DNA of 64,000 bases. It comes from Glaciihabitans sp. dw_435. Lineage in GTDB: Bacteria; Actinomycetota; Actinomycetes; Actinomycetales; Microbacteriaceae. Shown piece by piece: positions 7,950 to 34,614 of this stretch; position 1 is the stretch's first letter, and every line of letters starts with the position of its first letter. Below the pieces are notes generated by a model that worked only from the letters and a program-made list of their open reading frames with translations, did not search any database and was not told the origin of the DNA. The stretch lies in assembly GCF_018449675.1 (NCBI RefSeq), contig NZ_JAAVUZ010000007.1:1-64000 (forward strand), read 5' to 3'. The position numbers and the translations under genes were made by a program.

Positions 7950-8633
7950 ATGGTGAACAGAATCAACTTCTCGTTCGAAGAGACGGCGACCGACATCACG
8001 GAGCCCGTCACCAAGTTCGGCGGCCAGCCCGTCTGGATCGACGGCGCACAGTGGCCCATCAGCCGAAGCCTCGGCACTCCCATGCGGTTCATTGGCCAGA
8101 TCGCGATCGACGAGTCGGTCGTGCCCGGCGCCGGCGGCAAGATGGCCTACCTCTTCATGACCGAGGACGACGACAACTTCGCGGATGACACGTGGGTGCC
8201 CGATGCCGGAGAAAACGCCCTCATCATCCAGCCGAACGGCACGCCCGAGGTCGAGGTGCGCAATCTCACCACCGGCCCCACCGCCCGCAAGTTCGAAGAG
8301 GTGCAGGGAAAGTCCAAGCTGCAGCCGCGCGAGGTCATCTACGGGGTGCACACGGCTCCCGGCATCGATCCCGAGTTCATCGACGAGGAGGCCTCGGAGG
8401 AGATGACGGATGACGCGTGGTCGCTGCACGCCGCGGCGCTCGCCGGCAACAAGATCGGGGGCACCCCCGGGTTCCTCCAGTTCGACGAGTTCCCCGACGA
8501 GGAGACCGACTGGACCCTGTTGCTCCAGCTGGACGAGACCGAGACGCCGTTCTACCTCAACTTCGGGGGATCTGGCTGTGGGTACGCGTTTGTGAACCCC
8601 GGGGCATCCGTCGGCAAATTCCTCTGGCAATAG
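7950..8633 (+). CDS. DUF1963 (YwqG-like) protein
   Basis: A soluble 227-residue protein resembling the DUF1963/YwqG family: KFGGQPVWI near the start, the segment GTPMRFIGQI, KIGGTPGFLQ, LLLQLDE, and a C-terminal GGSGCGYAFVN ending in FLWQ. The biochemical role of the family is not established. ATG at 7950 has GAAAGG upstream at a fitting distance. It lies 12 bp before gltX. Confidence 0.75.
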   Translation: MVNRINFSFEETATDITEPVTKFGGQPVWIDGAQWPISRSLGTPMRFIGQIAIDESVVPGAGGKMAYLFMTEDDDNFADDTWVPDAGENALIIQPNGTPEVEVRNLTTGPTARKFEEVQGKSKLQPREVIYGVHTAPGIDPEFIDEEASEEMTDDAWSLHAAALAGNKIGGTPGFLQFDEFPDEETDWTLLLQLDETETPFYLNFGGSGCGYAFVNPGASVGKFLWQ

Positions 8634-8645
8634 GATTAGGGCGAT

Positions 8646-10121
8646 ATGTCTGCCACTTTCACCACCGCATCCGGTGCCGATGTCCGCGTGCGGTTTTGCC
8701 CGTCGCCGACCGGCACGCCCCACGTGGGTCTCATCCGCACAGCCCTGTTCAACTGGGCGTACGCGAGGCACACGGGCGGCAAGCTCATCTTCCGCATCGA
8801 GGACACCGATGCGGCGCGCGACTCGGAGGAGAGCTACCTCCAGCTGCTCGACGCGCTGCGCTGGCTGAAGATCGACTGGGACGAGGGCATCGACGTCGGG
8901 GGACCGCACGGGCCCTACCGCCAGTCGCAGCGGTCGGACATCTACCTCGAGATCATCGAGCGTCTGAAGACCTCCGGCCACCTCTACGAGAGCTACGCCA
9001 CCGGCGAAGAGATCGAGGCGCGCAACATCGCCGCCGGCCGCGACCCCAAGCAGGGCTACGACAACTTCGAGCGTGACCTCACGGCCGAGCAGATCGCCGC
9101 GTTTAAGGCGGAGGGACGCCAGCCCGCGCTGCGCCTGCGCGTGCCGGACACCGACCTGAGCTTCGACGACCTCGTGCGCGGGGAAATCACCTTCCCGGCC
9201 GGGTCCTTCACCGACTTCGTGGTCGTGCGCCCCAACGGCGCCCCGCTGTACACGTTCGTGAACCCCGTCGACGACGCGCTCATGGGCATCACGCACGTGC
9301 TGCGCGGCGAGGACCTGCTGTCGTCCACTCCCCGCCAGATCGCGCTGTACACCGCGCTGATCGAGATCGGTGTCGCTAGCGCGATCCCGCGTTTCGGCCA
9401 CCTGCCCTACGTCATGGGCGAGGGCAACAAGAAGCTCAGCAAGCGCGACCCCGAAGCTAACCTCTTCCACCACCGCGACCGCGGGTTCATTCCCGAGGGC
9501 CTGATCAACTACCTGGCGCTGCTCGGCTGGTCACTTAGCCACGACCGTGACGTGTTCTCCATCGACGAGATGGTGGCCGCGTTCGACGTCGTCGACGTGA
9601 ACCCCAACCCGGCCCGCTTCGACGTGAAGAAGGCCGAGTCGATCAACGGCGACCACATCCGGTTGCTCTCGGTCGAGGATCTCGCCTCGCGCCTGATTCC
9701 GTACCTCGACGGCATCGTGACGACAGCGGCCGACGAGGAGATGCTTCTCGCGGCCACACCGCTGGTGCAGGAGCGGATGCAACTCCTCGGCGAAGCGCCC
9801 GGACTTCTTGCCTTCCTCTTCACGGCGGACGAGGACCTCGTCTACGAGGCCGACGCGCTGCCCAAGCCCGACGCGGTGCCCGTGCTCGAGGCATCCATCA
9901 CCGCCCTTGCCAACCTCACCGAGTGGGCGCACGAGTCCATCGAGGCAGCGCTTCGCGTCGCCCTGATCGACGGGCTCGGCCTCAAGCCGCGCATCGCGTT
10001 CGGACCGCTGCGCGCCGGCATCTCCGGTCGTCGCATCAGCCCGCCGCTGTTCGAATCGATGGAGCTGCTCGGCCAGGCCTCGACACTGGCGAGGCTTGAG
10101 CGGCTGAAGTCGCAGCTGTGA
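8646..10121 (+). CDS. gltX: Glutamyl-tRNA synthetase
   Basis: Class I aminoacyl-tRNA synthetase that charges tRNA-Glu; in many actinobacteria it is the non-discriminating form acting with GatCAB. The 491 residues carry the HIGH-type motif as PTGTPHVGL near residue 20, FRIEDTD, and the KMSKS equivalent KKLSKRD near residue 263, followed by the helical anticodon-binding region. An N-terminal extension of about a dozen residues precedes [11 protein letters not shown]. The stop overlaps the start of the next gene by 4 bp. Confidence 0.96.
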
Positions 10122-20458: not shown

Positions 20459-21333
20459 CGGCCCACCATCGTTCCGGCGAGGCCCGCTGCCCCGCTGCCG
20501 GATCCGCCCGGATCCCGGCGCAACACGAGGGCCACGACTCCGAGCACGATCAGGGTCAGCACGAGCATGAGTGTAGACATGGCGGCGATCTCTGGCCGCA
20601 GCGACGCTTTCAGCGAGGCGAAGATGTAGACGGGCCAGGGCGTGGAACCTGCCACGGACACGAACGAGGAGACGACGGTGTTGTCGAGACTGAGCGTGAA
20701 TGCGAGCAGGGCACCGGAGATGACCGCCGGTCGGATCAGCGGAAGCGTGATGTCGACGAATCGCCGGAACGGTGAGGCATACAGATCGGCTGCCGCCTCT
20801 TCGAGGGACTCGTTCATTCCCGTCATCCTCGCGCGCACGATGAAGGTAACGACTGCACTCGAAAACAGTGAGTTGGCGATGATGAGACGCACCTGTCCGA
20901 TGTTGAATCCCGTCAGCCCCCAGTCGACGCCGAGGGTGACGAACCAGGGCAGCAGCGAGATCGCACTCACGATCTCCGGGGTGACCATCACGAGACCGAG
21001 CAGCACGAGAAGTCCGGGCGTCCACCAGCCAGCACGGCGGGCGAGGGCGATACCTGCGAACGTGCCCAGCACCGTGGACACCACCGCGACCCCGGCGGCT
21101 GTTATCAGCGACACCGAGATCGAGTTGGTAATGGCGGGGTTGGCGAGCGCGTCGAGGTAGGGCTGGATGCCGAAGCCCTCGAACGCCTGCAGGGTGCGCC
21201 CCGTGTTGAACGAGAAGATGACGATGACGACGATCGGGAAGAACAGGAATGCGAGGCCAAGAACACCCCAGATGGACAGCAGAGCGTCGATGGGAGACTT
21301 TCGGCGTCGGCGACCGATGCGGGGCGTGGTCAT
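20455..21333 (-). CDS. potC: Polyamine ABC permease, PotC-type
   Basis: A 292-residue inner-membrane permease with six predicted helices and the EAA loop near MNESLEEAAADLYASPF, which contacts the ATPase. Type and order (after the PotB-like gene) match the spermidine/putrescine importer of the PotABCD class. It overlaps both neighbours by 4 bp. Confidence 0.9.
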   Translation of the reverse strand: MTTPRIGRRRRKSPIDALLSIWGVLGLAFLFFPIVVIVIFSFNTGRTLQAFEGFGIQPYLDALANPAITNSISVSLITAAGVAVVSTVLGTFAGIALARRAGWWTPGLLVLLGLVMVTPEIVSAISLLPWFVTLGVDWGLTGFNIGQVRLIIANSLFSSAVVTFIVRARMTGMNESLEEAAADLYASPFRRFVDITLPLIRPAVISGALLAFTLSLDNTVVSSFVSVAGSTPWPVYIFASLKASLRPEIAAMSTLMLVLTLIVLGVVALVLRRDPGGSGSGAAGLAGTMVGR

Positions 21334-22286
21334 AACGGTTCCTTCGGTGACAGCGTGAGGGAGGTTGCGGCCGTGGTGATCCGGCCGACGAGCTTCAGGA
21401 GGCCGCCCACGACCGCGCTTGTGCCGAAGATCGCGAACATCAGCAGCACGGCCATTGCCGCCCCCAGCGCCCAGTTCTGGGCGCTCTGGAACTGCCCGGC
21501 CACCATCTGGCCGACCATGCTTCCCTTGGCTCCGCCCAGCACGGTGGGGGTGATGTAGTCACCCATCAGCGGGACGAAAACGAGGAGAAGGCCCGCCGTC
21601 ACGCCCGGGGACGTCAGGGGAACGGTGACCCGCCAGAACGTGCTCCATGCCGTGCCGCCCAGGTCGCGGCTCGCTTCGAGCAGCCTGGGATCCAGGCGCT
21701 CCAGTGCGACGTACAGGGGCAGGATCATCAGGGGAAGGTAGTTGTAGACGACACCGAGCTGCACAGCACCGGAGGTGTACAGGACCTTCAGCGGGGTGTC
21801 GATGATGTGCGCGCTCTGCAGCACATTCGATACGAAACCATCGGGGCTGAGCGAGATCTGCCACCCGATGGTGCGCACGAGAAAGTTCGTCCAGTAGGGG
21901 ATCAACACGAGCGCGAGGACCACCCCACGCCAGCGGGCCGCGAGCTTCACGGCCATCCAGTACGCCATCGGGAACGCGATCACCAGACAGAGGATCGTGC
22001 CGATGACGGAGATGTTCAGCGTCCGCCCGAAGATCGCGAAGAACGCGGGAGACGCAGCCTCCACGTAGCGGTCGAAGGAGAGCACATCGTTGTCGTGAGT
22101 GGTGTAGATATCGGGCTTGTAGCCGAAGCTGTACCAGACGACCAGGCCGAACGGCAGGATGAAGAACAGCAGGATCCACAGGCCGATCGGGAGGGCGCCG
22201 ATCCCTCGCGGCACCCGGAGCCACCGCCGAGAGGCGGGCGGCGGAGCGATCGGCACCTCCGCCGCCGGCGCCTCGATCGTGGTCAT
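21330..22286 (-). CDS. potB: Polyamine ABC permease, PotB-type
   Basis: A 318-residue permease with six or seven hydrophobic helices, a polar N-terminal stretch of about 25 residues, and an EAA-like loop around LLEASRDLGGTAWSTFW. YNYLPLMILPLY upstream of that loop is typical of PotB. It overlaps potD and potC by 4 bp each, so the transporter subunits are translationally coupled. Confidence 0.9.
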   Translation of the reverse strand: MTTIEAPAAEVPIAPPPASRRWLRVPRGIGALPIGLWILLFFILPFGLVVWYSFGYKPDIYTTHDNDVLSFDRYVEAASPAFFAIFGRTLNISVIGTILCLVIAFPMAYWMAVKLAARWRGVVLALVLIPYWTNFLVRTIGWQISLSPDGFVSNVLQSAHIIDTPLKVLYTSGAVQLGVVYNYLPLMILPLYVALERLDPRLLEASRDLGGTAWSTFWRVTVPLTSPGVTAGLLLVFVPLMGDYITPTVLGGAKGSMVGQMVAGQFQSAQNWALGAAMAVLLMFAIFGTSAVVGGLLKLVGRITTAATSLTLSPKEPL

Positions 22287-23425
22287 GCGCCCGCCGCAGC
22301 CTTGAGCTCGTCGTAAATGCTGATGATCGTGCCATCCATGGAGGTCATCTGGCTGTAGACCAGTTTTGACATGATCTCGTCACTGATGAAGATCAGGTCC
22401 GTGCGCTCGACGCCGGCGGCGGTCGCTGCGGCCTCGATGCCCTCAATGCCCGTGTTGTATCCCACGTAGGTGAGCTCCTTGAGCGAGACGGTGGGATCGA
22501 GCACATAGTTGATGAACTGGTAAGCGGCATCCTCGTGCGGGGCTCCCTTGACGATCGCCCAGTTGTCCTGCCAGAGGTTCGCACCTTCGGTGGGCCACAC
22601 CCACTTGTACCGGTCGGGTTCCTTGTTGGTGAGCAGGCCGAGTCGGGCGTCACCGTTCCAGCAGTGGATCAGGGCACGCGCCGACGTCGAAATTGAGGCG
22701 TTGGTGGATGACTCGAACGTCTGAACGTGAGGCGCGATCTTGGCAAGAACAAACTTGCGGTACGCCTCGACGTCGGCCTTGTTCGTCGTGTTGGGATCGA
22801 TGCCATTGGCGTAGAAGTAGGTGAAGGCCACCTCGCCCTGGTCCTCCAGAAGGGAGAAGCTTCCCGAGGCTTCGTTTTGTGCGGCATCAAGGAAGTCGGC
22901 CCACGACGTCAGTTCCCGCTTGATCACGGTGGTGTCGTAGACGTAGCCGGTCGATCCCCAGTCCTTGCACACCGAGTACTTGTTGCCCGGGTCGAAGGGG
23001 GTGTCGACAACGCCGGCGTTCAGGTTCTTCATATTCGGGAGCTTGGTGAGGTCGAGCTCCGTGAGCAAACCCGCGGTCGCCATTTGTTTGACGGACGAAT
23101 GGGTGGGAACACAGATGTCGTAGCCGGTCGTACCCTTCGCGGCGCTGAGCTTGGAAATCATCTCGGCGTTGGAGCCATAGGAGTCGAGGGTGATAGTCGG
23201 TCCCTTCGACTTGGTGTAGGCCGAGAGCACCTTGGGATCGTCGTACTCGCCCCAGGTGTAGATGTTGAGCGCACCACCCGCCGAGCCGCCGCCGCCAGGG
23301 CTGGCGCAGGCAGCGAGGAAGGCGGCAATGCCGACGGCGGCCGCTCCGCCAAGCACCGTGCGCCGGGAGAGGGAGTTCTTAAGGGCTTCCGGAAGGAGAA
23401 TGCGGATGTTCTGTGGCTGGTCCAT
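22283..23425 (-). CDS. potD: Polyamine-binding lipoprotein, PotD-type
   Basis: A 380-residue extracytoplasmic solute-binding protein. The N-terminus combines a twin-arginine-type motif (SRRTVLGG) with a hydrophobic stretch and a lipobox LAAC, so it is probably a Tat-exported, lipid-anchored receptor. The mature part starts with a Gly/Ser linker, then LNIYTWGEY, typical of the spermidine/putrescine receptors. Residues such as YDICVPTHSS and WAIVKGAPHEDAAYQFINY fit the same family. Ligand specificity cannot be assigned by eye. Confidence 0.9.
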   Translation of the reverse strand: MDQPQNIRILLPEALKNSLSRRTVLGGAAAVGIAAFLAACASPGGGGSAGGALNIYTWGEYDDPKVLSAYTKSKGPTITLDSYGSNAEMISKLSAAKGTTGYDICVPTHSSVKQMATAGLLTELDLTKLPNMKNLNAGVVDTPFDPGNKYSVCKDWGSTGYVYDTTVIKRELTSWADFLDAAQNEASGSFSLLEDQGEVAFTYFYANGIDPNTTNKADVEAYRKFVLAKIAPHVQTFESSTNASISTSARALIHCWNGDARLGLLTNKEPDRYKWVWPTEGANLWQDNWAIVKGAPHEDAAYQFINYVLDPTVSLKELTYVGYNTGIEGIEAAATAAGVERTDLIFISDEIMSKLVYSQMTSMDGTIISIYDELKAAAGA

Positions 23426-23491
23426 TGCTTCACTTTCGAATCGGGAGATGGGGGAGGCGATGCGGAATGCGGAGTGCGGAAGGACAGTCGT

Positions 23492-24643
23492 TCAGGAGGT
23501 GAAGAGGCGTACGGCGTCCGCTATCCACGAGCAGACAACGGGCGAGCCGAGTTCGGTGGGCGGGTTGGCTGAGCGCGGCAAACGGGCAAGGATTTGGGCG
23601 TCACTGGCGGTATGGATGACGAGTTGAAGGCTGTGACCGAGTTCGGACACCCCGCGCAGCACCCCGTGCACCGTGTTGGGCGGCGACGATATGCCGTGGG
23701 TGGCGGCCGCCGCCGAGGCATCCACTATTACCGCCTCGGGACGCACCGAGGCGGTCACGGCTCCGCCCACGGCGGCGGGAATCTCACCCCTCGCTTGCCG
23801 GGACGAGCGCAGCGTCAGATCGGGCGTGTGCACAGTTGTCCCCGTGGCATCAAAGCCCTCGATCGTGCCGGTGAACGCGTTCTGCCGTCCGATGAACCCC
23901 GCGACAAAGGCGGACTCCGGCGCGTCGTATACCTGGGCCGCGGTACCGATCTGTTCGATGCCGCCGTCCTTCATCACGGCGACCCGGTCGCTCATGGAGA
24001 GCGCTTCCTCCTGGTCGTGGGTGACGAAGATGAAGGTGGTGCCGAGTTCGCTCTGGAGCAGCTTGAGCTCGACCTGCATCTCCTCGCGCAGCTTTCGGTC
24101 GAGGGCGCTCATGGGTTCGTCGAGCAGGAGCACCGCGGGGCGGTTGACCAGGGCGCGGGCGAGCGCGACGCGCTGCTGCTGGCCGCCAGAGAGTTGTGCG
24201 GGTTTGCGATCGGCGAATGCCGTCATCCGCACCATGTCGAGAGATCGACGTACCCGGTCGGCCATCTCCGAGCGGGCGACCCCGCTGCGGCGCAGTCCGT
24301 ACGCCACGTTGTCGGCGACCGTGAGGTGCGGGAAAAGGGCATAGGCCTGAAAGACGGTGTTCACCGGACGCTTGTGCGGCGGCAGGTTTTCGACGTGCTT
24401 TCCGGAGATCTGGATGGAACCGTCGTCCGGGAACTCGAAGCCTCCAATCATCCGCAGGGTCGTGGTCTTGCCGCATCCGCTGGGCCCAAGAAGGCTGAGG
24501 AACTCGCCTGCCTGCACACTGAGGCTGAGATCGGAGACGGCCGTTGCCGTTCCGTATCGCTTGGTCAGCGACCGCAGCTCGACAGATCCGGGTGCGCCGG
24601 CGAGGGCTGCCGTCGCGGACTCGCCGGTATCGATGACACTCAC
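23492..24643 (-). CDS. potA: Polyamine ABC ATPase, PotA-type
   Basis: A 383-residue ABC ATPase with Walker A GPSGCGKTT near residue 55, signature LSGGQQQR, Walker B VLLLDEPMSALD and the switch His in FVTHDQEEAL. The C-terminal ~130 residues form a TOBE-like regulatory domain as in PotA. The N-terminus overlaps the amidohydrolase stop by 4 bp; a 66-bp gap separates it from potD, the only real gap in the operon, and may hold a second ribosome-binding or processing site. Confidence 0.92.
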   Translation of the reverse strand: MSVIDTGESATAALAGAPGSVELRSLTKRYGTATAVSDLSLSVQAGEFLSLLGPSGCGKTTTLRMIGGFEFPDDGSIQISGKHVENLPPHKRPVNTVFQAYALFPHLTVADNVAYGLRRSGVARSEMADRVRRSLDMVRMTAFADRKPAQLSGGQQQRVALARALVNRPAVLLLDEPMSALDRKLREEMQVELKLLQSELGTTFIFVTHDQEEALSMSDRVAVMKDGGIEQIGTAAQVYDAPESAFVAGFIGRQNAFTGTIEGFDATGTTVHTPDLTLRSSRQARGEIPAAVGGAVTASVRPEAVIVDASAAAATHGISSPPNTVHGVLRGVSELGHSLQLVIHTASDAQILARLPRSANPPTELGSPVVCSWIADAVRLFTS

Positions 24644-26295
24644 GCCGACACCGCTTCCGTGGTGCTCGCCGAGTAGACGACCTCTCCACCGATGATCGTG
24701 TAGGCGACACTCGCGGAACCGATCTCGGCAACGGGGGCAGCGAAGATGTCCCGGTCGAGGATCACGATGTCGCCCGCCTTGCCCACCTCGATGCTGCCGG
24801 AGCGTGCCTCGTCATGGTTGAGGAACGCCGTGCCGAGGCTGTGGGCGATGAGCGCATCGGCGAGGGACAGCGCCTGCTCCCCGAGGAAGGGGAGGGCGGC
24901 AGCGCCGGTCGCCCCGGCGGGCGCCCGGTTCACGGAGGTATGGATGATCTCCAGGGCGTTGGCGGTGCTGACGGGCCAGTCGCTTCCCGAGGCGAGCGGC
25001 GCCCCCGCCCGCTGCAGCGAACCGAAGGGATACTGCCAGCCTGCCCGGCGGGTGCCGAGGAAGGGAATCGTGAGGGTGTCCATCTGCGCCTCGTGCCGCG
25101 CCCACAACGGCTGCATGTTCGCCACCGCGCCGAGCTCCGCGAACCGGGGGATGTCGTCGGGGTGGATGATCTGGATGTGGGCGAGTGTGTGGCGCAGGTC
25201 GCTGTCGCCGTTCGCGTCACGGGCGGCTTCGATCGCGTCGAGCGCCTCGCGCACGGCCCGGTCGCCGAGGGCGTGATAGTGAAGCTGGAAGCCAAGGGCA
25301 TCCAGCTCGATCGAGAGTTCCTTGAGCGTGGTCGGATCGACGAAGCTCTTGCCGGTGTTCTCGCCCGGGCAGCCGCACGCATCGAGGTACGGCTCGAGCA
25401 TTCCGGCGGTGAAGTTCTCGGCCACGCCATCCTGCATGATCTTGACCGTCGTCGCCCGGAATCCGCCGGCAAGAGCGCGCTCGCGCTTCGCGACGATTTC
25501 GGGGATCTGCTCGAGCCCCCGGTTGCGGTCCCACCAGATTGCGCCAACCACGTGGGCCTTGAGCACGCCGGACGCGGTACCGCGCAGGTAGGAGTCCAGC
25601 GGATCGGGGGTGTCGTTGGTGGCGCCCACGATGGCGTCCTGCCAGCCGGTGATACCCCAGGAGAACAGCTGTTGCTGTGCAATCGCGAGGGCCTCATCCA
25701 TGTCGTCCTGGCTCGGGAGAGGCACGTGGCTGGCGACAAATCCCATCGCGCCTTCCTGAAGCGTGCCGATCGCATGACCGTCCGCGTCCCGTTCGATGCG
25801 ACCGTCAAACGGGTCCGGCGTCGAGTCATCGATTCCGGCAATCTCGAGGGCCTTGGAGTTGACCCAGGCGCCGTGACCGTCGCGGTTGGGGAAAAACGCG
25901 GGGCGGTCGGGCACGATCGCATCGAGGGCCGCGGCGCTGGGAAGCCCACCGGGGAACGAATCCATCGACCAGCCGCCGCCAGTGATCCACTGGAGATCCG
26001 GGTTGGCGGCGGCGTACTCCGCGATGCGCGTGAGGTAGCCGTCGGCGGTGACGTACGGAGTGAGGTCGCACGCGATCATGTCGAGGCCCGCGTGATACGG
26101 GTGCACGTGACTGTCCTGGAAACCGGGGGAGACGGTGCCGCCCGCCGCATCGATCTCGGTGGCGCCCGGCACAGCGAGCGCATCGGGCCCGATCGCCGTG
26201 ATGACGCCGTTCTCGATGAGGACGGGTTCTTCCACGACGCCCGCGGGGGTGAACACGTGGCCGCCGGTAATGAGTAAGCGTTCGGAAGTTGTCAT
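24640..26295 (-). CDS. YtcJ-like metal-dependent amidohydrolase
   Basis: A 551-residue amidohydrolase-superfamily enzyme. The metal-binding HxH is in FQDSHVHPYHAG, with later ligands expected in HYHALGDRAVREAL and AHIQIIHPDD, and the catalytic Asp in ASGSDWPVS. Residues 1-70 and the C-terminus form the composite beta-sandwich typical of the family. YtcJ-like enzymes hydrolyse varied amides or imides with few known substrates. Position between the regulator and potA, overlapping both by 4 bp, suggests a step in use of the imported compound, perhaps deacylation of an N-acylated polyamine; this is inference only. Confidence 0.85.
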   Translation of the reverse strand: MTTSERLLITGGHVFTPAGVVEEPVLIENGVITAIGPDALAVPGATEIDAAGGTVSPGFQDSHVHPYHAGLDMIACDLTPYVTADGYLTRIAEYAAANPDLQWITGGGWSMDSFPGGLPSAAALDAIVPDRPAFFPNRDGHGAWVNSKALEIAGIDDSTPDPFDGRIERDADGHAIGTLQEGAMGFVASHVPLPSQDDMDEALAIAQQQLFSWGITGWQDAIVGATNDTPDPLDSYLRGTASGVLKAHVVGAIWWDRNRGLEQIPEIVAKRERALAGGFRATTVKIMQDGVAENFTAGMLEPYLDACGCPGENTGKSFVDPTTLKELSIELDALGFQLHYHALGDRAVREALDAIEAARDANGDSDLRHTLAHIQIIHPDDIPRFAELGAVANMQPLWARHEAQMDTLTIPFLGTRRAGWQYPFGSLQRAGAPLASGSDWPVSTANALEIIHTSVNRAPAGATGAAALPFLGEQALSLADALIAHSLGTAFLNHDEARSGSIEVGKAGDIVILDRDIFAAPVAEIGSASVAYTIIGGEVVYSASTTEAVSA

Positions 26296-26957
26296 GAGGA
26301 AGTCCCTGAGGTCTGGTGGGCTGGCGCCGGGGCGGTGAACGGGTTGAGGTCCTGTGGGGGCGTGAAATGCGAGGTGATCCAGATGGCCTGCGCTTCGGTC
26401 GCGCCGATGTTGACCGCGCGGTGGGGGATGGAGGAGAGGTATTCGATGCTGTCGCGCGGTCCGAGGATGTGGTTCTCCTCGCCGATCGAGATCTGAACGT
26501 GCCCGCTCAGCACGTAAAACAGCTCCTGAGCGTTGTCGTGGGCGTAGGCTTCCGCACCCGTGGACCCACCGACCTCGAACGTGCCCTCGTACACCTCGAG
26601 TTGCTGGATGGGCGGTCGTGACAGCAACAGTTTCTGCAGACCACCGTCGCTGGAGAGCACGGGCCGCTGGTGGGCCCGCAGCACCGGACGGGACGCGGGC
26701 GCCTCGTCCGAGAGCAGGTCGGCAACGGAGATTCCGACGGCCGTGGATATCCGCTTGAGCACGCCCACCGAAGCGCCGCGCTTGCCGTTCTCGAGCTGGC
26801 TGATGAAGCCGGCGCTGACTCCCGCACGGGCGGCAACGTCCCGGGTCGACAACCGTGCGCGCTCACGCGCGGTCCTCAGGCGCTCGCCCAGCTGGTCCTT
26901 CGTCGGCTCCGGGGAGTTGACGACGGCTGCCGTGGATTCAGAAATCATGAGGCTCAT
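26292..26957 (-). CDS. XRE-cupin transcriptional regulator (PuuR-like)
   Basis: A 221-residue regulator with an N-terminal helix-turn-helix of the XRE type (LSTRDVAARAGVSAGFISQ, residues about 35-55) and a C-terminal cupin domain (EVGGSTGAEAYAHDNAQE, IPHRAVNIG). This architecture is shared with PuuR, the polyamine-responsive repressor. As first gene of the reverse operon it probably controls both polyamine operons and itself. ATG at 26957 was taken; a second ATG lies 9 bases downstream. Confidence 0.88.
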   Translation of the reverse strand: MSLMISESTAAVVNSPEPTKDQLGERLRTARERARLSTRDVAARAGVSAGFISQLENGKRGASVGVLKRISTAVGISVADLLSDEAPASRPVLRAHQRPVLSSDGGLQKLLLSRPPIQQLEVYEGTFEVGGSTGAEAYAHDNAQELFYVLSGHVQISIGEENHILGPRDSIEYLSSIPHRAVNIGATEAQAIWITSHFTPPQDLNPFTAPAPAHQTSGTSS

Positions 26958-27335: not shown

Positions 27336-28712
27336 CTAGGCAAGCCCGCCGACGAAGGCGCCGAGAACGAGGATGCCTCCGAGCCCAACGACTGACTGCA
27401 CAGTGACCAACAGGCTCCAGGTGCGCAGAGTCTGCGGAACTGTCAGCCCGAAGTACTCCTTGAACAACCAGAAGGCTCCATCGCTGACGTGCGAGAAGAT
27501 CATGGCGCCGGTACAGGTTGCGAGCACCAGCAGGGCAGGGTTGACCGACGGATCTGCCGCAATAAGCGCAGCGACGATTCCCGTGCTGGCGGAGACGGCA
27601 ACTGTTCCCGAACCGAGCGCGATGCGGAAAATCGCTGCCACAATCCAGGCGAAAAGCACGGCCGGGATGGCCCAGGTCTGTGCGGCTCCGCTGATGATGT
27701 CGCTCAGTCCGATCGCGGTGAGGATCGTCTTCAGGCCGCCACCGGCGCCGATGATCAGCAGCAAGCTGACGATCGGCACGATGCTTGAACGCACAATCGC
27801 CTGGATGTCGACGAGGGTGAATCCCGAGCCCCTTCCCAGAACGATGAAGGCGAGGATGACGGCGAAGGTCAGTGACAGCACCGGGTTGCCGATGGTCTCA
27901 AAGAACGGAACGAGGAACGAACCCTTGGGGGTGACGTCGAGCCCGATGGTGCCGATGATCATGAGGGCGGGGGCAAGCAGGACGGAACTGAGGGCAGCGG
28001 CCAGGCTTGGCTCGCGAAGACGGGCCAGCGTCAGATCTCCACCGATGTGAGCGCTGGCGGCAGGGGACGACGGGTCCATGCCCACGTCCTTGCCGATGTA
28101 CTTTCGCATGACGCGGGGGAACAGCCAGGCACCGACGAGCAGTACCGGGACAGCGACGATGACGCCATACAGCGTGGTAGTTCCGATGTTGGCGCCGTAT
28201 GCGGTCGCGGCGAGGATCGGAGCCGGGCCCGGGGGAAGCAAGCCGTGTGCCGTCATGAGTCCCGCCGCCATGGGAATTCCCACGGCCAGGAGGCTGACGT
28301 GCAGGCGCTTGGCGATCGAGAACACGAGCGGCACGAGCAGGACGAAGGTGACTTCGAAGAGGTTGGGAAGTCCGATGATCAGCGCGACGAGACCGACGCT
28401 GATGGGCATCCAGATGATCTTGCGCTTACCGATGATGACGTCGGCGATGCGGTCGCCGCCGCCCGAGCGAATCAGGATGCCACCCAGCATCGCACCGAGG
28501 GCGATTACCACGCCGGTCACCGAAAGTTGCTTGCCAAAGCCATCGGTAAAGGTGGAGACGGCGGTCGTGACATCCAGCCCATTGACGATGCCCAGCAGAA
28601 TGCTGGAGATCAGCAACGCGAAGAACGGATGCAGTTTCACGCGGGTGATCAGGATCACCAACAGCACGATCGCGAGGATCCCGCTGATCACGGTGAAGAG
28701 AGTTGAATGCAC
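27336..28712 (-). CDS. GntP-family permease
   Basis: A 458-residue, strongly hydrophobic transporter of the gluconate:H+ symporter (GntP) family, with about 12 membrane segments. Typical stretches are VKLHPFFALLISSILLG at the N-terminus, ALGAMLGGILIRSGGGDRIAD and MTAHGLLPPGPAPILAA. Known members carry gluconate and other sugar acids. ATG at 28712 is preceded by AAAGGAG, a good ribosome-binding site. Divergent from a GntR regulator and an isomerase/kinase operon, it is the likely uptake system for that pathway. Confidence 0.88.
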   Translation of the reverse strand: MHSTLFTVISGILAIVLLVILITRVKLHPFFALLISSILLGIVNGLDVTTAVSTFTDGFGKQLSVTGVVIALGAMLGGILIRSGGGDRIADVIIGKRKIIWMPISVGLVALIIGLPNLFEVTFVLLVPLVFSIAKRLHVSLLAVGIPMAAGLMTAHGLLPPGPAPILAATAYGANIGTTTLYGVIVAVPVLLVGAWLFPRVMRKYIGKDVGMDPSSPAASAHIGGDLTLARLREPSLAAALSSVLLAPALMIIGTIGLDVTPKGSFLVPFFETIGNPVLSLTFAVILAFIVLGRGSGFTLVDIQAIVRSSIVPIVSLLLIIGAGGGLKTILTAIGLSDIISGAAQTWAIPAVLFAWIVAAIFRIALGSGTVAVSASTGIVAALIAADPSVNPALLVLATCTGAMIFSHVSDGAFWLFKEYFGLTVPQTLRTWSLLVTVQSVVGLGGILVLGAFVGGLA

Positions 28713-28796
28713 TGTGCGATTTCTCCTTTGAAATACCTCTGGGCGGATAGCCGAGGGAGGCTACAAAACAATATGCCGTCGCGGCCCGACGGAAAA

Positions 28797-28810
28797 CTTC
28801 CTATAGGAAG
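28797..28810. promoter_or_regulatory. Palindromic operator between gntP-like and gntR genes
   Basis: CTTCCTATAGGAAG is a perfect 14-bp palindrome in the divergent promoter region. Its half TATAGGAAG (28802-28810) recurs exactly at 29618-29626 in front of the isomerase/kinase operon, pointing to one regulator acting at both sites, most simply the GntR protein encoded between them. Confidence 0.65.
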
Positions 28811-28879
28811 AATGATCCACGAAATCGAATTGTGCAAGTTCAGCTTCTCCGAGTGATCCTCGCGGCGTTACCCTGAAGC

Positions 28880-29572
28880 ATGGCAATCGGACCCTCGTCG
28901 CGCGGCACGTTATCCCGTCAAGTTCTCGCGGACCACGTGTACGACGAGCTGATGGTGGCGTTCATGGATGGGCGCCTCGAGGCTGACGAAGCCCTCAACA
29001 TCGACTCGCTCGCCCGCGACCTGGAGATTTCACAAACGCCCATCCGGGAGGCGCTTGCACGCTTGGAATCAACGGGCCTGGTTATCCGCACGGCGCTCAA
29101 GGGCTACCGCGTCGCCCCCCTCTTTTCGCTCGAGGAAGTCGTCGAGCTGATGAACGCCCGACAATTGATCGAGCCGGAGAATGCCTTTCTCGCCTGCTCG
29201 CGGTCGACGGACGCTCTCGTTGCACAGCTCGAACAGACCATCGTCGACCTTGACCGGTCGTCCGAGCAGGCCGACTCGGTCGCGACGATCCGCCCGTATT
29301 GGCAGGCTGACGAGCGTTTCCATCGCCTGATCGCCGAAAGCACGGGCAACCGGTTCCTGCTCGCGGCGTACACGGCTCTTGGTGGTCACGTGCAACGATT
29401 CCGGCTCTTCGGTGGGCTCGGAGTGAGCGACGCGGGCCCGGCCATCGCGGAGCACACCCGGGTGCTCGACGCGTTCAAGGCCGGGGACGCCGACGCGGCC
29501 CGCGCCGGGATGGACGAACACATTTGCGGAGTGCGCACCCGAGCGGTCGCCGACGCCGCCGGAGAGCACTAA
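28880..29572 (+). CDS. GntR/FCD transcriptional regulator
   Basis: A 230-residue regulator: N-terminal winged helix (ALNIDSLARDLEISQTPIRE, residues about 38-57, with ARLESTGLV following) and a C-terminal all-helical FCD ligand domain with metal-ligand-type residues in QADERFHRLI and AEHTRVLDAF. FCD proteins usually repress uptake and catabolism of organic or sugar acids and release on binding the substrate or an intermediate. TACCCT lies 5 bases before the ATG. Shared half-sites suggest it controls the GntP-like permease and the downstream operon. Confidence 0.9.
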   Translation: MAIGPSSRGTLSRQVLADHVYDELMVAFMDGRLEADEALNIDSLARDLEISQTPIREALARLESTGLVIRTALKGYRVAPLFSLEEVVELMNARQLIEPENAFLACSRSTDALVAQLEQTIVDLDRSSEQADSVATIRPYWQADERFHRLIAESTGNRFLLAAYTALGGHVQRFRLFGGLGVSDAGPAIAEHTRVLDAFKAGDADAARAGMDEHICGVRTRAVADAAGEH

Positions 29573-29614
29573 CCCAGCACTCCCCACATTTGACAATCCG
29601 TACCGTCGGGTGGA

Positions 29615-29631
29615 TCGTATAGGAAGTACGA
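29615..29631. promoter_or_regulatory. Second GntR-type operator
   Basis: TCGTA-N7-TACGA is a 5-bp inverted repeat containing TATAGGAAG (29618-29626), the same 9-mer as half of the palindrome at 28797-28810. It lies downstream of a TTGACA hexamer (29590-29595) that may be the -35 box of the following operon. Confidence 0.55.
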
Positions 29632-29672
29632 CCTACGATTTTGGCTCAGCCGAACCACACGACGAGGTGTCT

Positions 29673-30602
29673 ATGTCATTCACTCGAGAGAGCTGGCCCA
29701 TCGCGGCCGCCCTCCACCAGTTCTCCCACCCCAGCGTGCAGGACGCGTCCGTCGACGTCTGGCTGGATACCCTCCGCCAGGTCGCCTCTGTCGGGTTCGC
29801 CTCGATCGACCTCACCGACAGCTGGGTGCGCATTGGAGACCTGACGCCTGAGCGCTTCGCAGATTTCCAGCAGACTCTGTCGAGTGCCGGGATGGATGCC
29901 CCCGCGCTGTCCATCACGAGGCGCAGTGTCATTGACCCCCTCACCGGAGACGACAATCTCGCGTACACGCATCGCACCGTGGACGCCGCCGCGGCCCTCG
30001 GTACCGGGGTGCTGTCCCTCGGACTGCACCGGCCCCTCACCGTTGAGCAGAAGAAGCAACTCTGGTTCTGGAACGCGAAGAGCGACGGCGACCCCATCGA
30101 GGACTTCGATGCCTGGGAGCTTGCCGTCACTCGATTCCGCGAGATCGGCAACCATGCCGCGGATTACGGCATGCAGGTCTCCCTCGAGATGTACGAAGAC
30201 ACCTTCCTCGGCAGCGCCGACTCGGCGGTGCGCCTGATTAACGACATCGATCTCCCGAACGTCGGCCTCAATCCGGATATTGGCAACATCGTGCGCATGC
30301 ACCGTGAGATCGAAGACTGGCGCGACATGCTCGCCAAGACGCTGCCGTACACGAACTACTGGCAGGTAAAGAACTACTACCGGGATGAGGATGCCGCGAC
30401 GGGAAGCATCTTCACCGCGCCCGCGCCCCTCATGCTCGGCTTCATCAACTACCGCGAGGCCGTACGTGACGCTCTCGCCCTCGGCTTCCAGGGCGTGATC
30501 TGTTGCGAGCACTACGGCGGTGACGGACTTGCCGTCAGCGGCCTGAACGCCGACTACCTCCGCACCCTATTGCCCGCTACGTCGCAGGAGACCCGCGCAT
30601 GA
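29673..30602 (+). CDS. TIM-barrel sugar isomerase/epimerase
   Basis: A 309-residue protein of the xylose-isomerase-like TIM-barrel superfamily (AP endonuclease family 2 fold). Candidate metal ligands lie in SLEMYEDTF (Glu), GLNPDIGNI (Asp), YWQVKNYYRDE (in place of the more usual His motif) and the C-terminal ICCEHYGGDG (Glu). The substrate is probably a short sugar, sugar acid or keto-sugar. ATG at 29673 follows GAGGTG; its stop overlaps the kinase start by 4 bp. It is the first gene of a five-gene operon. Confidence 0.82.
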   Translation: MSFTRESWPIAAALHQFSHPSVQDASVDVWLDTLRQVASVGFASIDLTDSWVRIGDLTPERFADFQQTLSSAGMDAPALSITRRSVIDPLTGDDNLAYTHRTVDAAAALGTGVLSLGLHRPLTVEQKKQLWFWNAKSDGDPIEDFDAWELAVTRFREIGNHAADYGMQVSLEMYEDTFLGSADSAVRLINDIDLPNVGLNPDIGNIVRMHREIEDWRDMLAKTLPYTNYWQVKNYYRDEDAATGSIFTAPAPLMLGFINYREAVRDALALGFQGVICCEHYGGDGLAVSGLNADYLRTLLPATSQETRA

Positions 30603-32335
30603 CCTACCTCATCACCGATTCGACAACCTTCGCCGATGCCGCCATTGACGGGTTCGTGCTCGCCAATCCGCGGCACGTGCGCCGCGCGAGCGGCGGAGTC
30701 ATCCGTTCCACTGTCATTCCCGACGGTCGCGTCGGCGTCGTCATCGGCGGCGGTTCCGGACACTATCCCGCGTTCGCCGGCCTCGTTGGCCCGGGTCTCG
30801 CCTCCGGCGCTGTGTGCGGCAACATCTTCGCGTCGCCATCGTCCGGGCAGGCATACCGTGTGTCGCATGCCGTCGAGCGAGGTGCCGGCGTTCTGCTGGC
30901 CTATGGCAACTACGCCGGTGACGTGCTGCAGTTCGGCCAGGCAGTCGAGCGGCTGAAGGGCGACGGGATTGACGCCCGCATGATCGCCGTCACCGACGAC
31001 GTCGCCAGTGCATCCGCCGACGAAATCGGCAAGCGTCGGGGAATCGCCGGCGACCTCACCGTCTTCAAGGTCGCGGGAGCTGCCGCGGAGGCGGGGGCCT
31101 CCCTCGACGAGGTGGAGCGCCTCGCTCACCGTGCCAACGATCGCACCCGCACGTTCGGCGTCGCTTTCACTGGGTGCACTCTGCCGGGCGCGACCGAGCC
31201 TCTCTTCACCGTGCCCGAAGGGATGATGGCGATCGGCCTCGGCATTCACGGGGAGCCGGGTCTCGGCGAGGTGCCCGTGACGACCGCTCCAGAACTGGCC
31301 GAGCTGCTCGTGTCCCGTCTTCTCGGCGAACTGCCCGAGGGAATCACCACACCGGAAGGGCAGCGCGCCGTTGTGCTGCTCAATGGCCTTGGCTCGTTCA
31401 AGTACGAGGAAATGTTCGTGGTTTTCGGTGCGATTCATTCCTTATTATCGGATGCCGGTGTGCAGATCGCTTCGTCCGAGAGCGGCGAGCTCGTCACCAG
31501 CCTCGACATGGCAGGTGTGTCCCTGACGCTGTTCTGGGTCGACGACGAGCTGGAAAACCTGTGGGACGCGCCCGCGGATACTCCCGGCTACCGCACCGCG
31601 CGCATCGCAGCGGATCTCGATACCGCGGTCGCGGCGGGGGCCACCGTCGCCGCGTCCCGCCAGAAAGCCAGCACGATCGACGCCGCCGGTGCCGCTGCTG
31701 CCCTCGGCTACGCCCGGGTGGTGCACGCGATGATCCTCGCGTCGGAAGAAGAATTCGGGCGAATCGACGCCGTCGCCGGTGACGGCGATCACGGCATCGG
31801 CATGAGCCGCGGGGTCAGCGGCGCGGTGAGCGCGGCCGAGGTTGTTGTCGCCGAAGGTGGCAGCCTCAAGGAACTTCTCGCCGAAGCCGGCGAGGCGTGG
31901 TCCGAACACGGAGGTGGAACCTCCGGCGCACTGTGGGGGATCGCGCTCACCGCTGCCGGCGCGAGTCTTCCCTCCGACACCGCGATTGATCCGGCGGCTG
32001 TCAGCGTCGCGGTGGATGCGGCACTCGCCGCCATCCAGAAACTCGGCAAGGCGCAGGTGGGGGACAAGACCCTCGTCGACGCCTTCGTTCCGTTCGCCGA
32101 ACGACTGAGTGCCTCCGTCGGCGATGACCTGCCCCTACCCGCGGCGTGGGCAATCGCGGCCGAGGCCTCACTGCAGGCCGCCGCCGCCACGGCCCAGCTC
32201 AAACCGCGCCTGGGACGCGCGCGTCCCCATGTCGAGCGCAGCCTCGGCCACCCCGATGCCGGGGCCACCTCGCTTTCCCGCATAGCCGTGACGATCAGTG
32301 ATGCCATGGCGACCGATCCGACACAGAAGGACTAG
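30599..32335 (+). CDS. DhaK-DhaL fused keto-sugar kinase
   Basis: A 578-residue ATP-dependent kinase of the dihydroxyacetone kinase family with both domains in one chain. DhaK part: [24 protein letters not shown], and the substrate-binding His in GIHGEPG near residue 215. DhaL (ATP) part: [14 protein letters not shown] with the Mg-binding Asp residues near 394, and [10 protein letters not shown]. Characterised relatives phosphorylate dihydroxyacetone, erythrulose (LerK in Mycobacterium smegmatis) or apulose. The RpiB- and TPI-like neighbours make a tetrulose the best guess, unproven. Confidence 0.88.
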
Positions 32336-32339
32336 AACC

Positions 32340-32810
32340 ATGAGCGAACCACTACGCATTGTCATCGGAAACGACGACGCCGGAGTTGACTACAAGGACG
32401 TGCTGAAGAAGATGCTTGAAGCTGACCCCCGGGTCGCCTCGGTCGTGGATGTCGGGGTCGATGCCGATGGGCACACCGCTTACCCCCACGTCGCCGTTGC
32501 CGCCGCGCGGCTTGTCGCGGATGGGGCGGCCGACCGCGCCCTGCTCTTCTGCGGCACCGGGCTCGGCGTCGCAATTTCGGCCAATAAGGTTGCCGGCATC
32601 CGAGCGGTCACGGCACACGACAGCTATTCGGTAGAGCGCTCCGTGTTGAGCAACAACGCGCAGGTGCTGACCATGGGCCAGCGCGTCATCGGCATCGAGT
32701 TGGCCAAGCGTCTCGTGGGCGAGTGGCTCGACTACCGCTTCGACGAGTCCTCGGCGTCTGCGGAGAAGGTCGCTGCGATCAGCAGCTACGAGGAAGCTCC
32801 GCAGGACTGA
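32340..32810 (+). CDS. RpiB/EryI-like sugar phosphate isomerase
   Basis: A 156-residue LacAB/RpiB-family aldose-ketose isomerase. Seen: the N-terminal [11 protein letters not shown], the catalytic Cys in [15 protein letters not shown] (about residue 70), and [19 protein letters not shown]. The SYSVERS form resembles the tetrose-4-phosphate isomerases EryI/DerI of erythritol pathways more than ribose-5-phosphate RpiB, so D-erythrulose-4-phosphate to D-erythrose-4-phosphate is a reasonable candidate reaction. It starts 4 bp after the kinase stop. Confidence 0.85.
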
Positions 32811-32812
32811 CT

Positions 32813-33604
32813 GTGCCATCCACGATCTTCGTCGGGGTCAGCACCAAGGCCTACTTCGGTTTCGCGCAGACTCTGGACTGGCTGTCCGAACTGCGGGACA
32901 CGGTGGTGGCGCGCCCGGAACTCGCTACCAATGGAGTCATTCCGTTCGTGATTCCCTCGGCGCCCCTCCTTCCCCGCAGTGTTGCTCTGCTGGCAGGCAC
33001 CGGGGTGCTCGTTGGTGCACAGGATCTCGGATACTCCACGGGAGCCTTCACCGGCGAGACGCCCGCGCCGATGCTGGCGGAGATTGGAGTCCGCATCGCG
33101 GAGATCGGCCATGCCGAGCGCCGCTCCCTGTTCCACGAAACTGACGAGGTCATCGAGCGCAAGCACGCCGCCGCCACCGCCGCGGGCCTGACCTCGCTGC
33201 TGTGCGTGGGTGAGCTTGATGTCAGCACGCCGGAGGAGGCGGCTCGGTTCTGCTTCGACCAGATCACAGCGGTCGTGCCATCCGCTCAGACCGCCGACGT
33301 GCTCATCGCGTATGAGCCGGTGTGGGCGATAGGAGCGGATGCCCCGGCCGCCCCCGATTACGTCAACGCAGTCATCCATGAGCTGCGCGCGCTCGTCGTT
33401 GCGCGGTATCCCGATCTCGGCGTCAGTTTTATCTACGGAGGCAGCGCCGGTCCCGGCCTGCTTCCCCTTCTCTCCGAGCTGGACGGGATTTTTCTCGGCC
33501 GCTTCGGACATGACATCGGTAACCTCGCTGCTGTTCTCGACGAGGCTCTGGCGCTGACAACTTCATCCACACCCACCCCCGACAACAAGAAGGTCGCATC
33601 ATGA
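32813..33604 (+). CDS. Triosephosphate-isomerase-like (EryH/LerI-type)
   Basis: A 263-residue TIM-barrel isomerase. All three catalytic residues of triosephosphate isomerase are present: Lys in FVGVSTKAYFG, His in AEIGHAERR (about 98), Glu in IAYEPVWAIG (about 167), plus a modified phosphate loop IYGGSAGPG. STK instead of NWK at the N-terminal motif and the cluster context point to a specialised isomerase such as EryH/LerI (L-erythrulose-1-P to D-erythrulose-4-P) rather than the glycolytic enzyme. GTG start at 32813, 2 bp after the preceding stop; the stop overlaps the next gene. Confidence 0.85.
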   Translation: MPSTIFVGVSTKAYFGFAQTLDWLSELRDTVVARPELATNGVIPFVIPSAPLLPRSVALLAGTGVLVGAQDLGYSTGAFTGETPAPMLAEIGVRIAEIGHAERRSLFHETDEVIERKHAAATAAGLTSLLCVGELDVSTPEEAARFCFDQITAVVPSAQTADVLIAYEPVWAIGADAPAAPDYVNAVIHELRALVVARYPDLGVSFIYGGSAGPGLLPLLSELDGIFLGRFGHDIGNLAAVLDEALALTTSSTPTPDNKKVAS

Positions 33605-34614
33605 CAACAACGCCCGCCGCGCGTCGACCGCGCATCGCCCTCACCCTCGGTGACCCCGCCGGAGTCGGACCAGAGCTCGCAGCAAAGTTGCTCGCCCGTC
33701 CCGGAACGCTCGAGTCGGCGGAGGTTTATGTCCTCGCCGATGCCGCGGAGCTGGATCGCGCCGCCGCCACCGCCGGGGTAACGATTCCCCTGAGCGACGA
33801 ACCGAAGCCCGGGTTCGCCACGCTGCTGGACGACAACTCGTATCCCGAGATCCCCATCCCGATCAGAGAGGTCAGCAAGGAAGCGGGGGAGCGCGCGATG
33901 CACCAGCTCAGCCGTGCCCTCGATCTGGCCAACGCCGGCAAGGTCGACGCGATTGTCTTCACGCCGCTGAACAAGACGAGCCTGAAGCTTGCGGGAATGC
34001 ACCACGAGGATGAACTGCGCTGGTTTGCCCAGGAGCTCGGCGCCACCGGGGTGACCTCCGAACTCAATGTGCTCGATGAAATCACCACCGCCCGCGTGAC
34101 CTCGCACATTCCGCTGTCCGAGGTTGCCGCCCTGATCAAGGCCCCCGCGGTGACCGCTGCCATCGAGCTCCTCAACGAGGTATTGCGCGCCGCCGGCCTC
34201 GACGCTCCCCGCATCGGTGTCGCCGCGCTGAACCCTCACGGGGGAGAGAACGGCAACTTCGGCCGCGAGGAGATCGACGAGATCGCCCCCGGTGTCGAGG
34301 CCGCGCGCGCAGCGGGTATCGACGCCACGGGTCCGTTCCCGTCGGACACGATCTTCGCCGCCAAGCGGAAGGACTTCGATGGCATCGTCACGATGTACCA
34401 CGACCAGGGACAGATCGCGATGAAGCTCATCGGGTTCGACGCCGGTGTGACGGTTCAGGGTGGGCTGCCGGTGGCGATCGCCACCCCCGCCCACGGAACC
34501 GCGTTCGACATCGTGGGAAAAAACATCGTCAACACCGGTGCAACCGAGCACGCGTTCGATCTTGCGGTCTCACTGGCCGCGCGCAAAATCGCTGCGGGAA
34601 CCGCGGCCGCGTAG
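33601..34614 (+). CDS. PdxA-like oxidative decarboxylase
   Basis: A 337-residue NAD-dependent, divalent-metal dehydrogenase of the PdxA family: TLGDPAGVGPELAAK at the N-terminus and metal-binding His residues in TSHIPL, NPHGGENG and MYHDQGQIAMK. Canonical PdxA makes a vitamin B6 precursor; PdxA2 proteins oxidatively decarboxylate 4-phospho-erythronate or -threonate to dihydroxyacetone phosphate. Position at the end of a sugar-phosphate operon, coupled by 4 bp to the TPI-like gene, favours the catabolic role. No DUF1537 kinase, the usual PdxA2 partner, is present in the window. Confidence 0.85.
   Translation: MTTTPAARRPRIALTLGDPAGVGPELAAKLLARPGTLESAEVYVLADAAELDRAAATAGVTIPLSDEPKPGFATLLDDNSYPEIPIPIREVSKEAGERAMHQLSRALDLANAGKVDAIVFTPLNKTSLKLAGMHHEDELRWFAQELGATGVTSELNVLDEITTARVTSHIPLSEVAALIKAPAVTAAIELLNEVLRAAGLDAPRIGVAALNPHGGENGNFGREEIDEIAPGVEAARAAGIDATGPFPSDTIFAAKRKDFDGIVTMYHDQGQIAMKLIGFDAGVTVQGGLPVAIATPAHGTAFDIVGKNIVNTGATEHAFDLAVSLAARKIAAGTAAA

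Follow-up and report, generated by a model that had tools for sequence, protein, structure and literature searches.

A recurrent actinobacterial operon with a PdxA-like enzyme as a possible route from a C5 sugar acid to D-erythrose-4-phosphate

Introduction

The breakdown of D-erythronate and D-threonate relies on PdxA2 together with a DUF1537 kinase. A related gene inventory, without this kinase, is found in the 64,000-nucleotide stretch of Glaciihabitans sp. dw_435 analyzed here (contig NZ_JAAVUZ010000007.1, positions 1 to 64,000; hereafter the window), which belongs to a genome of 3.7 Mb with an estimated completeness of 99.99%. It contains an operon of five genes, encoding in this order a xylose-isomerase-like TIM-barrel protein (PF01261), a DhaK-DhaL fusion kinase (DhaKL), an RpiB-like protein, a triose-phosphate isomerase (TPI)-like protein and a PdxA-like enzyme, accompanied by genes for a GntP permease and an FCD-type regulator (Table 1). 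The operon resembles the D-erythronate and D-threonate pathways in combining a PdxA-family enzyme with a sugar-acid context, but differs in the residues of the PdxA pocket and in the kinase: the absence of a DUF1537 gene, pointed out in the first-pass annotation of the window, extends to the rest of the genome, in which PF07005 has 0 matches.

The D-apionate pathway, attributed to Carter et al. 2018, is said to run via L-erythrulose and to involve ApnO, OiaC, LerK, LerI and DerI. Like the window, it has genes for a kinase, a TPI-like and an RpiB-like protein, as well as a PF01261 protein where decarboxylation is presumed to occur. In contrast, it employs an enzyme of family PF16896 where the window operon has a PdxA-like enzyme, and the PF01261 protein of the window has no blastp match to that of a cluster of apparently the known D-apionate type (L129, see below). 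D-apionate oxidoisomerase is named in PMC11747546, and Carter et al. 2018 is cited in PMC6302742.

According to PMC12780249, the erythritol and threitol pathways of Brucella and Mycolicibacterium smegmatis lead to D-erythrose-4-phosphate via erythrulose phosphates. The route proposed here would likewise end at D-erythrose-4-phosphate through erythrulose phosphates, but those pathways start from polyols, and a Pfam search of the seven window genes detects no polyol dehydrogenase family, in agreement with the first-pass annotation. Finally, the terephthalate dihydrodiol dehydrogenase/decarboxylase has a PdxA fold and an unphosphorylated substrate, and the presumed aromatic-diol members of our alignment lack N283 and R292, as does the window enzyme; it differs in having an aromatic substrate and other pocket residues (a GYP motif in the aligned sequences L141 and L136).

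Results and Discussion

Proposed pathway

We propose, holding the chances to be evenly balanced, that the operon serves the uptake and breakdown of a C5 3-hydroxy sugar acid by a pathway in which the PdxA-like enzyme precedes the kinase and the carbon passes through L-erythrulose. The genes, their recurrence, the exchange of one dehydrogenase for another and the altered PdxA pocket can be read from the sequences; the reactions and the substrate are what we infer from them. GntP would import the acid, and the PdxA-like enzyme would oxidise its 3-hydroxyl with NAD, prior to any phosphorylation. The TIM-barrel protein would then take CO2 off the 3-oxo acid to yield L-erythrulose, which the DhaK-DhaL kinase would convert to L-erythrulose-1-phosphate. 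The TPI-like enzyme would turn this into D-erythrulose-4-phosphate, and the RpiB-like enzyme would produce D-erythrose-4-phosphate. A linear route with the PdxA-like enzyme at its start is preferred because the pocket residues of this enzyme are lost and because an HCDH-type dehydrogenase (3-hydroxyacyl-CoA dehydrogenase family) is found in its stead at other loci. A C5 aldonate oxidised at C3 would give a 3-oxo acid that is decarboxylated to erythrulose, and with a C4 of L configuration the product would be L-erythrulose.

If true, many actinobacteria and some rhizobia own an unassigned route from a sugar acid to erythrose-4-phosphate.

The PdxA-like enzyme

Compared with E. coli PdxA (L140), whose numbering is used here, the window enzyme retains the metal histidines 166, 211 and 266 and K274. 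At positions 135-138 it has D, E, L and R where the E. coli enzyme has G, H, T and E; position 283 is T instead of N, position 292 is I instead of R, and TPAHGT replaces SVDHGT. We take H136, T137, K274, N283 and R292 of E. coli PdxA to be contacts to the phosphorylated substrate. The altered pocket is conserved: in the PdxA of 12 homologous loci (see below), E, L and T occupy positions 136, 137 and 283 while 292 is either I or L, and D137, E138, L139, R140 and T284 (window numbering) are invariant in the 13 sequences formed by the window and these loci. A DEIR motif is present in three rhizobial PdxA proteins (L114-L116) and in L132.

A D-threonate-4-phosphate dehydrogenase (L142) and a pdxA-2 (L143) retain H, T, N and R at 136, 137, 283 and 292, and a distant PdxA (L133) has S at 283, yet keeps GHTE and R. 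N283 and R292 are missing from L141, L136 and L145, which were taken for aromatic-diol types; L145 sits among ring-dioxygenase genes, and for L141 and L136 the class is our assumption. The window enzyme scores 250.5 bits against the PdxA equivalog model TIGR00557, below the cut-off of 290.35. PDB titles (8zhy and related entries) describe a PdxA-fold terephthalate 1,2-cis-dihydrodiol dehydrogenase/decarboxylase, which acts on an unphosphorylated substrate. The lost pocket residues argue for, but do not prove, an unphosphorylated substrate of the window enzyme as well. Its predicted structure is too poor for an analysis of the pocket (mean pLDDT 76.8, below 50 at residues 212-219 and 299-309).

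These residues also bear on the branch envisaged in the first-pass annotation, where PdxA decarboxylates a phosphorylated product downstream of the kinase. In such a scheme a ketose or acid would be isomerised and phosphorylated by DhaKL, after which PdxA would decarboxylate tetronate-4-phosphate to a triose phosphate. The window enzyme does belong to the PdxA family, with D-threonate-4-phosphate dehydrogenase among its nearest solved sequence relatives, but the presumed substrate residues (H136, T137, N283 and R292) are gone, the DUF1537 kinase was not found in the genome, and an HCDH-family enzyme replaces PdxA at other loci; DhaK-family kinases, moreover, make phospho-ketoses and are not known to make phospho-aldonates. 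A place for PdxA after the kinase is unlikely, and the tetronate-4-phosphate scheme as a whole is highly improbable.

It had also been considered that the enzyme might serve only vitamin B6 synthesis, of which we see no sign. The window gene is the sole PdxA of its genome and PdxS is present, so that the PdxA route to vitamin B6 would not be needed; this role was set aside.

The DE motif and TPAHGT are also seen in PdxA relatives from other settings (L117, L118, L144, L146 and L147). L117 and L118 adjoin an L-rhamnonate dehydratase gene and L144 adjoins threonate genes; all five are annotated as 4-hydroxythreonine-4-phosphate dehydrogenase, which is probably the wrong name for the subfamily. 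If our proposal is true, the name would be corrected for one PdxA subfamily.

Recurrence of the locus

Relatives of the TIM-barrel protein were sought in one genome per species, and 80 loci (L034-L113) out of 83 confirmed were examined over about 9 kb on each side of the TIM-barrel gene, or less at contig ends. The search used peptide patterns from the window protein itself and thus favours near relatives. The gene arrangement exceeds chance, the TIM barrel recurring in 80 loci. DhaKL is present in 57, RpiB in 47 and a TPI-like gene in 36 of the 80, and many of the homologous loci listed have a related FCD gene upstream of the TIM barrel. In a separate set of 398 genomes from the family of the window, 135 match the TIM barrel at E 1e-3, the weakest of these matches being of partial length and about 24-35% identity.

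The closest TIM barrel (72%) is that of Subtercola boreus (L034); neither PdxA, HCDH nor TPI was found in the 19 kb of this locus, and no PdxA match was found in the whole genome.

Two dehydrogenase types at the TIM-barrel loci

When open reading frames (ORFs) were clustered, a rough method, one frequent neighbour (cluster 2) appeared at 46 TIM-barrel loci. This is an HCDH-family protein; its representative from L063 matches PF02737 and PF00725 and stays below every NCBIfam cut-off. Its best models include one non-CoA enzyme, the structure of which (4om8) is its second-best PDB match. By a single tblastn criterion, the HCDH type was present at 55 loci, PdxA at 13, neither at 12 and both at none. 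The PdxA of L106 was dropped from this count, being of the ordinary phosphate-site type (GQTE and R292), 36% identical and located 7.7 kb from the TIM barrel; it adjoins an ORF taken by eye for a DUF1537 kinase. This leaves 55/80 loci with the HCDH type, 12/80 with the window-type PdxA, 13/80 with neither and 0/80 with both (p 9e-8 in a Fisher test without correction for kinship). Each of the 55 HCDH matches shares 49% identity or more with a single reference and is no further than 6 kb from the TIM barrel. Of 46 genus labels, 22 show the HCDH type alone, 10 PdxA alone and 12 neither; Arthrobacter has both, in different genomes.

On the best TIM-barrel tree from a short search (84 rows: the 80 loci, the window and three rhizobial plasmids; 17 of 81 inner branches open), the PdxA and HCDH labels switch 7 times by parsimony. 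The well-supported (starred) branches of this tree require the PdxA label to change 4 times or more, in a labelling that still included L106, and hold 4 independent PdxA/HCDH pairs. Genome-wide, HCDH-family matches reach at most 42% identity in 11 of the 12 PdxA-type genomes and 53% in that of L107. PdxA was searched for in 23 of the 55 HCDH-type genomes, with a match of at most 43% or none in 22 and one of 62% in the genome of L108. In the window genome no HCDH orthologue was found (best match 27%). If our proposal is true, the exchange would be a clear example of a pathway step at which unrelated dehydrogenases substitute for each other.

Among the 13 loci with neither type, 12 genomes were searched and some PdxA was found in 7, with 49-60% identity in 3 and weaker in 4; those 3 carry a DELR or DEIR motif and are located away from the TIM barrel. 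Two of these 13 loci have other NAD enzymes. In L062, an isocitrate/tartrate-dehydrogenase-type enzyme (PF00180; 6879-7943, minus strand) is encoded close to the genes for the TIM barrel and TctA, and is perhaps a third substitute for PdxA and HCDH. In L067, a D-erythronate dehydrogenase gene (7960-8931, plus strand; NF043036, 470.9 bits, cut-off 325) lies directly upstream of the gene for the TIM-barrel relative, and a TRAP binding protein is encoded downstream.

The TIM-barrel protein

The window TIM barrel shares 44% identity with 5tnv, a protein from Mycobacterium smegmatis with no function given in its PDB title. The predicted structure (mean pLDDT 91; residues 5-20 of the longer form unreliable) superimposes on 5tnv with a Z score of 44.1 and a root-mean-square deviation of 1.4 over 301 residues, the next match having Z 25.6. 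E193, D223 and E300 are unchanged in 28 of 28 aligned sequences and, judging from the family, are candidate metal residues. Residue 252 is Q in the window and H in most relatives; by raw count, Q252 occurs in 9/16 PdxA-type rows vs 3/55 HCDH-type rows. A link of this residue to the dehydrogenase type was set aside, as an independent-pairs test was unable to reach significance. OiaC is not named among the structure matches listed, which counts as no evidence.

In the first-pass annotation, the TIM barrel was an isomerase acting first. We consider a 3-oxo-acid decarboxylase more likely: the dehydrogenase partner at HCDH-type loci (e.g., L049 and L058) belongs to a family that is not known to decarboxylate, and the shared TIM barrel is therefore the natural candidate for this step. 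If true, a function would be found for a family whose solved member has none in its title.

Alternatively, the PdxA-like enzyme alone could carry out the oxidative decarboxylation, and the TIM barrel could be an epimerase or isomerase, converting, for example, D-erythrulose to L-erythrulose. The PdxA-fold terephthalate dihydrodiol enzymes, titled dehydrogenase/decarboxylase in the PDB, are in line with such a division of labor, as is an L-ketose 3-epimerase with L-erythrulose (5h1w) among the TIM-barrel fold neighbours listed. The TIM barrels of L049 and L058, however, adjoin the dehydrogenase of the presumably non-decarboxylating family just mentioned, and this alternative appears unlikely to us.

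Lower module and second cluster

The DhaKL fusion scores 694 bits against NF011049 (cut-off 492). The RpiB-like protein passes TIGR02133 (195.7 bits, cut-off 168.2) and is below the cut-off of NF051858 for D-erythrulose-4-phosphate isomerase (154 bits, cut-off 240), a model whose name suggests a rhizobial set. The window genome has three TPI-family genes, and Dak1 matches at four places, one of them in two pieces. The window TPI-like protein is 32% identical to the pgk-linked TPI (L119) and reads GVSTKA where the latter has GNWKMN; it thus lacks the NWKM motif of glycolytic TPI with N11, which is presumably a functional residue. All 36 TPI-like genes at the TIM-barrel loci carry S where the pgk-linked TPI has N, as judged by eye. 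We propose that the kinase is an L-erythrulose kinase (LerK-like), the TPI-like protein an L-erythrulose-1-phosphate isomerase (LerI/EryH-like) and the RpiB-like protein a D-erythrulose-4-phosphate isomerase (DerI/EryI-like), such that the window would hold all three gene types of an L-erythrulose module.

The idea that these three genes form a tetrulose module, put forward in the first-pass annotation, gains support from a paralogous trio in a second cluster of the same genome (L129; contig C1, 206000-224000). It encodes an MFS transporter, DhaKL, RpiB, TPI, a PF01261 protein and a PF16896 enzyme; DhaKL, RpiB and TPI have the same order as in the window, with 57%, 71% and 49% identity. The PF16896 enzyme (203.5 bits) also matches KARI_N (30 bits, cut-off 20.6), and by Pfam no PF16896 enzyme is found among the seven window genes. 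Between the PF01261 protein of L129 and the window TIM barrel there is no blastp match at 1e-6. We take PF16896 to be the family of D-apionate oxidoisomerase (ApnO) and the PF01261 protein of L129 to be OiaC. L129 is then probably a D-apionate route through L-erythrulose; if it is this known route, the window operon would be a second entrance into the same lower module. GlpX and class-II aldolase genes are located near L129.

Could the substrate of the window operon itself be apionate or another branched C5 acid, with the PdxA-like enzyme as an alternative oxidoisomerase and the TIM barrel in the role of OiaC? Both clusters have the lower module and a PF01261 protein in common, but the genome already contains the PF16896 cluster, the two PF01261 proteins have no blastp match to each other, and HCDH-family enzymes oxidise a secondary 3-hydroxyl, which apionate lacks. 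We regard this as the most improbable of the readings considered.

In a further alternative, the substrate is threonate or erythronate, and oxidation and decarboxylation of this C4 acid would yield dihydroxyacetone, which DhaKL would phosphorylate to dihydroxyacetone phosphate and the TPI-like enzyme would isomerise to glyceraldehyde-3-phosphate. Such a route would suit the family membership of DhaKL, the three rhizobial loci in which RpiB and TPI are not beside DhaKL, and the D-erythronate dehydrogenase gene next to the TIM barrel in L067. It would leave RpiB no role, though RpiB is present in 47 of 80 loci; the 36 TPI-like genes are without the N of the pgk-linked TPI, of which the genome already has a copy; and the kinase, RpiB and TPI trio matches that of the second cluster. 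For the window, this explanation is improbable. The probabilities that we attach to these alternatives overlap one another and that of the pathway via L-erythrulose.

Rhizobial loci

In Pararhizobium qamdonense, the annotated order is regulator, PdxA, TTT binding protein, TctB, TTT permease, TIM barrel and DhaKL. S. meliloti 1021 pSymB (L114, record 1558646-1566541) and Ensifer adhaerens have PdxA, TctC-like, TctA-like, TIM barrel and DhaKL genes in this same order, based on ORF calls and tblastn; no match to TctB was identified at these two loci. The presence of PdxA, TIM barrel and kinase means that the core spans phyla. As RpiB and TPI are not beside the kinase at the three loci, a dihydroxyacetone route is possible there.

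Substrate and weighing of the proposal

PdxA substrates have a 3R-type hydroxyl and those of the HCDH family a 3S-type one. From this preference it would follow that the two enzymes serve C3 epimers and converge on one 3-oxo acid. For the window we guess at L-lyxonate or L-xylonate, L-pentonates whose C3 hydroxyl is 3R, and for the HCDH-type loci at the 3S epimers, L-arabinonate or L-ribonate, leading to the same 3-oxo acid. According to PMC11066805, ascorbate breakdown yields L-lyxonate and L-xylonate; if our proposal is true, the bacterial fate of these ascorbate-derived acids becomes testable. The full version of the proposal is an undescribed L-pentonate route that would include vitamin C-derived L-lyxonate and L-xylonate, with PdxA re-tooled for unphosphorylated acids and interchangeable with an HCDH enzyme of opposite C3 preference, both feeding one TIM-barrel decarboxylase and L-erythrulose; in this extended form we find it rather doubtful.

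One HCDH locus (L056) carries genes for an SDR, a sugar-binding protein and an SMP-30-type lactonase, a set as might be expected for aldose-to-aldonate oxidation, at this locus only. At five Microbacterium loci (L064, L066, L069, L074 and L075), a gene of the GH3 cluster, of which a representative was checked with Pfam, lies directly upstream of the TIM barrel, hinting at an acid or parent sugar derived from a glycoside; ABC permease genes are also present in L069 and L075.

Several points weigh against the pathway via L-erythrulose. PdxA-family enzymes usually decarboxylate unaided, which would leave the TIM barrel without its job as decarboxylase, and its listed fold neighbours, 5tnv aside, are chiefly isomerases and epimerases. 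At the three rhizobial loci, RpiB and TPI are absent beside the kinase. The genomes of L107 and L108 each contain both dehydrogenase types, which is as compatible with dehydrogenases for different epimers as with plain replacement, and 13 of the 80 loci have neither; for 4 of these 13 the sequence breaks off 1.6 kb or less from the TIM barrel. The window TIM barrel itself served to draw the sample, which is mostly actinobacterial. The roles of the PdxA pocket residues, the stereochemical argument and the assignment of the names ApnO and OiaC are assumptions. Lastly, no paper describing the gene set of the operon was recognised in searches of the open-access literature.

Locus layout

The gene list of the first-pass annotation is confirmed by ORFs and Pfam, with the addition of the FCD regulator (Table 1). 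The GntP gene, divergent from the regulator and the operon, passes TIGR00791 (364.1 bits, cut-off 292.75) and encodes a probable sugar-acid importer. All four junctions within the operon overlap or almost touch. The TIM-barrel gene probably starts at ATG 29673, and the starts listed for the RpiB-like and TPI-like genes, right after the stops of DhaKL and RpiB, respectively, are the probable ones.

Table 1. Genes of the operon and its divergent permease (window coordinates)
Feature	Position	Strand	Start	Family match
GntP permease	27336..28712	-		PF02447, E 1.4e-115
GntR-FCD transcriptional regulator	28880..29572	+		PF07729 + PF00392
AP_endonuc_2 (xylose-isomerase-like TIM barrel)	29610..30602	+		PF01261, E 4.6e-26
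DhaK-DhaL fusion (Dak1+Dak2)	30599..32335	+		PF02733 + PF02734
RpiB-like (LacAB_rpiB)	ORF 32298..32810	+	probably ATG 32340	PF02502
TPI-like	32813..33604	+	probably GTG 32813	PF00121
PdxA-like	33601..34614	+		PF04166, E 7.8e-83, 278.6 bits

Upstream of the operon, the region 21330-26957 contains ABC transporter genes that by eye resemble the spermidine/putrescine type. An amidohydrolase-like gene and a gene for a regulator that matches PuuR below cut-off are also present there, and the whole seemingly forms a separate unit.

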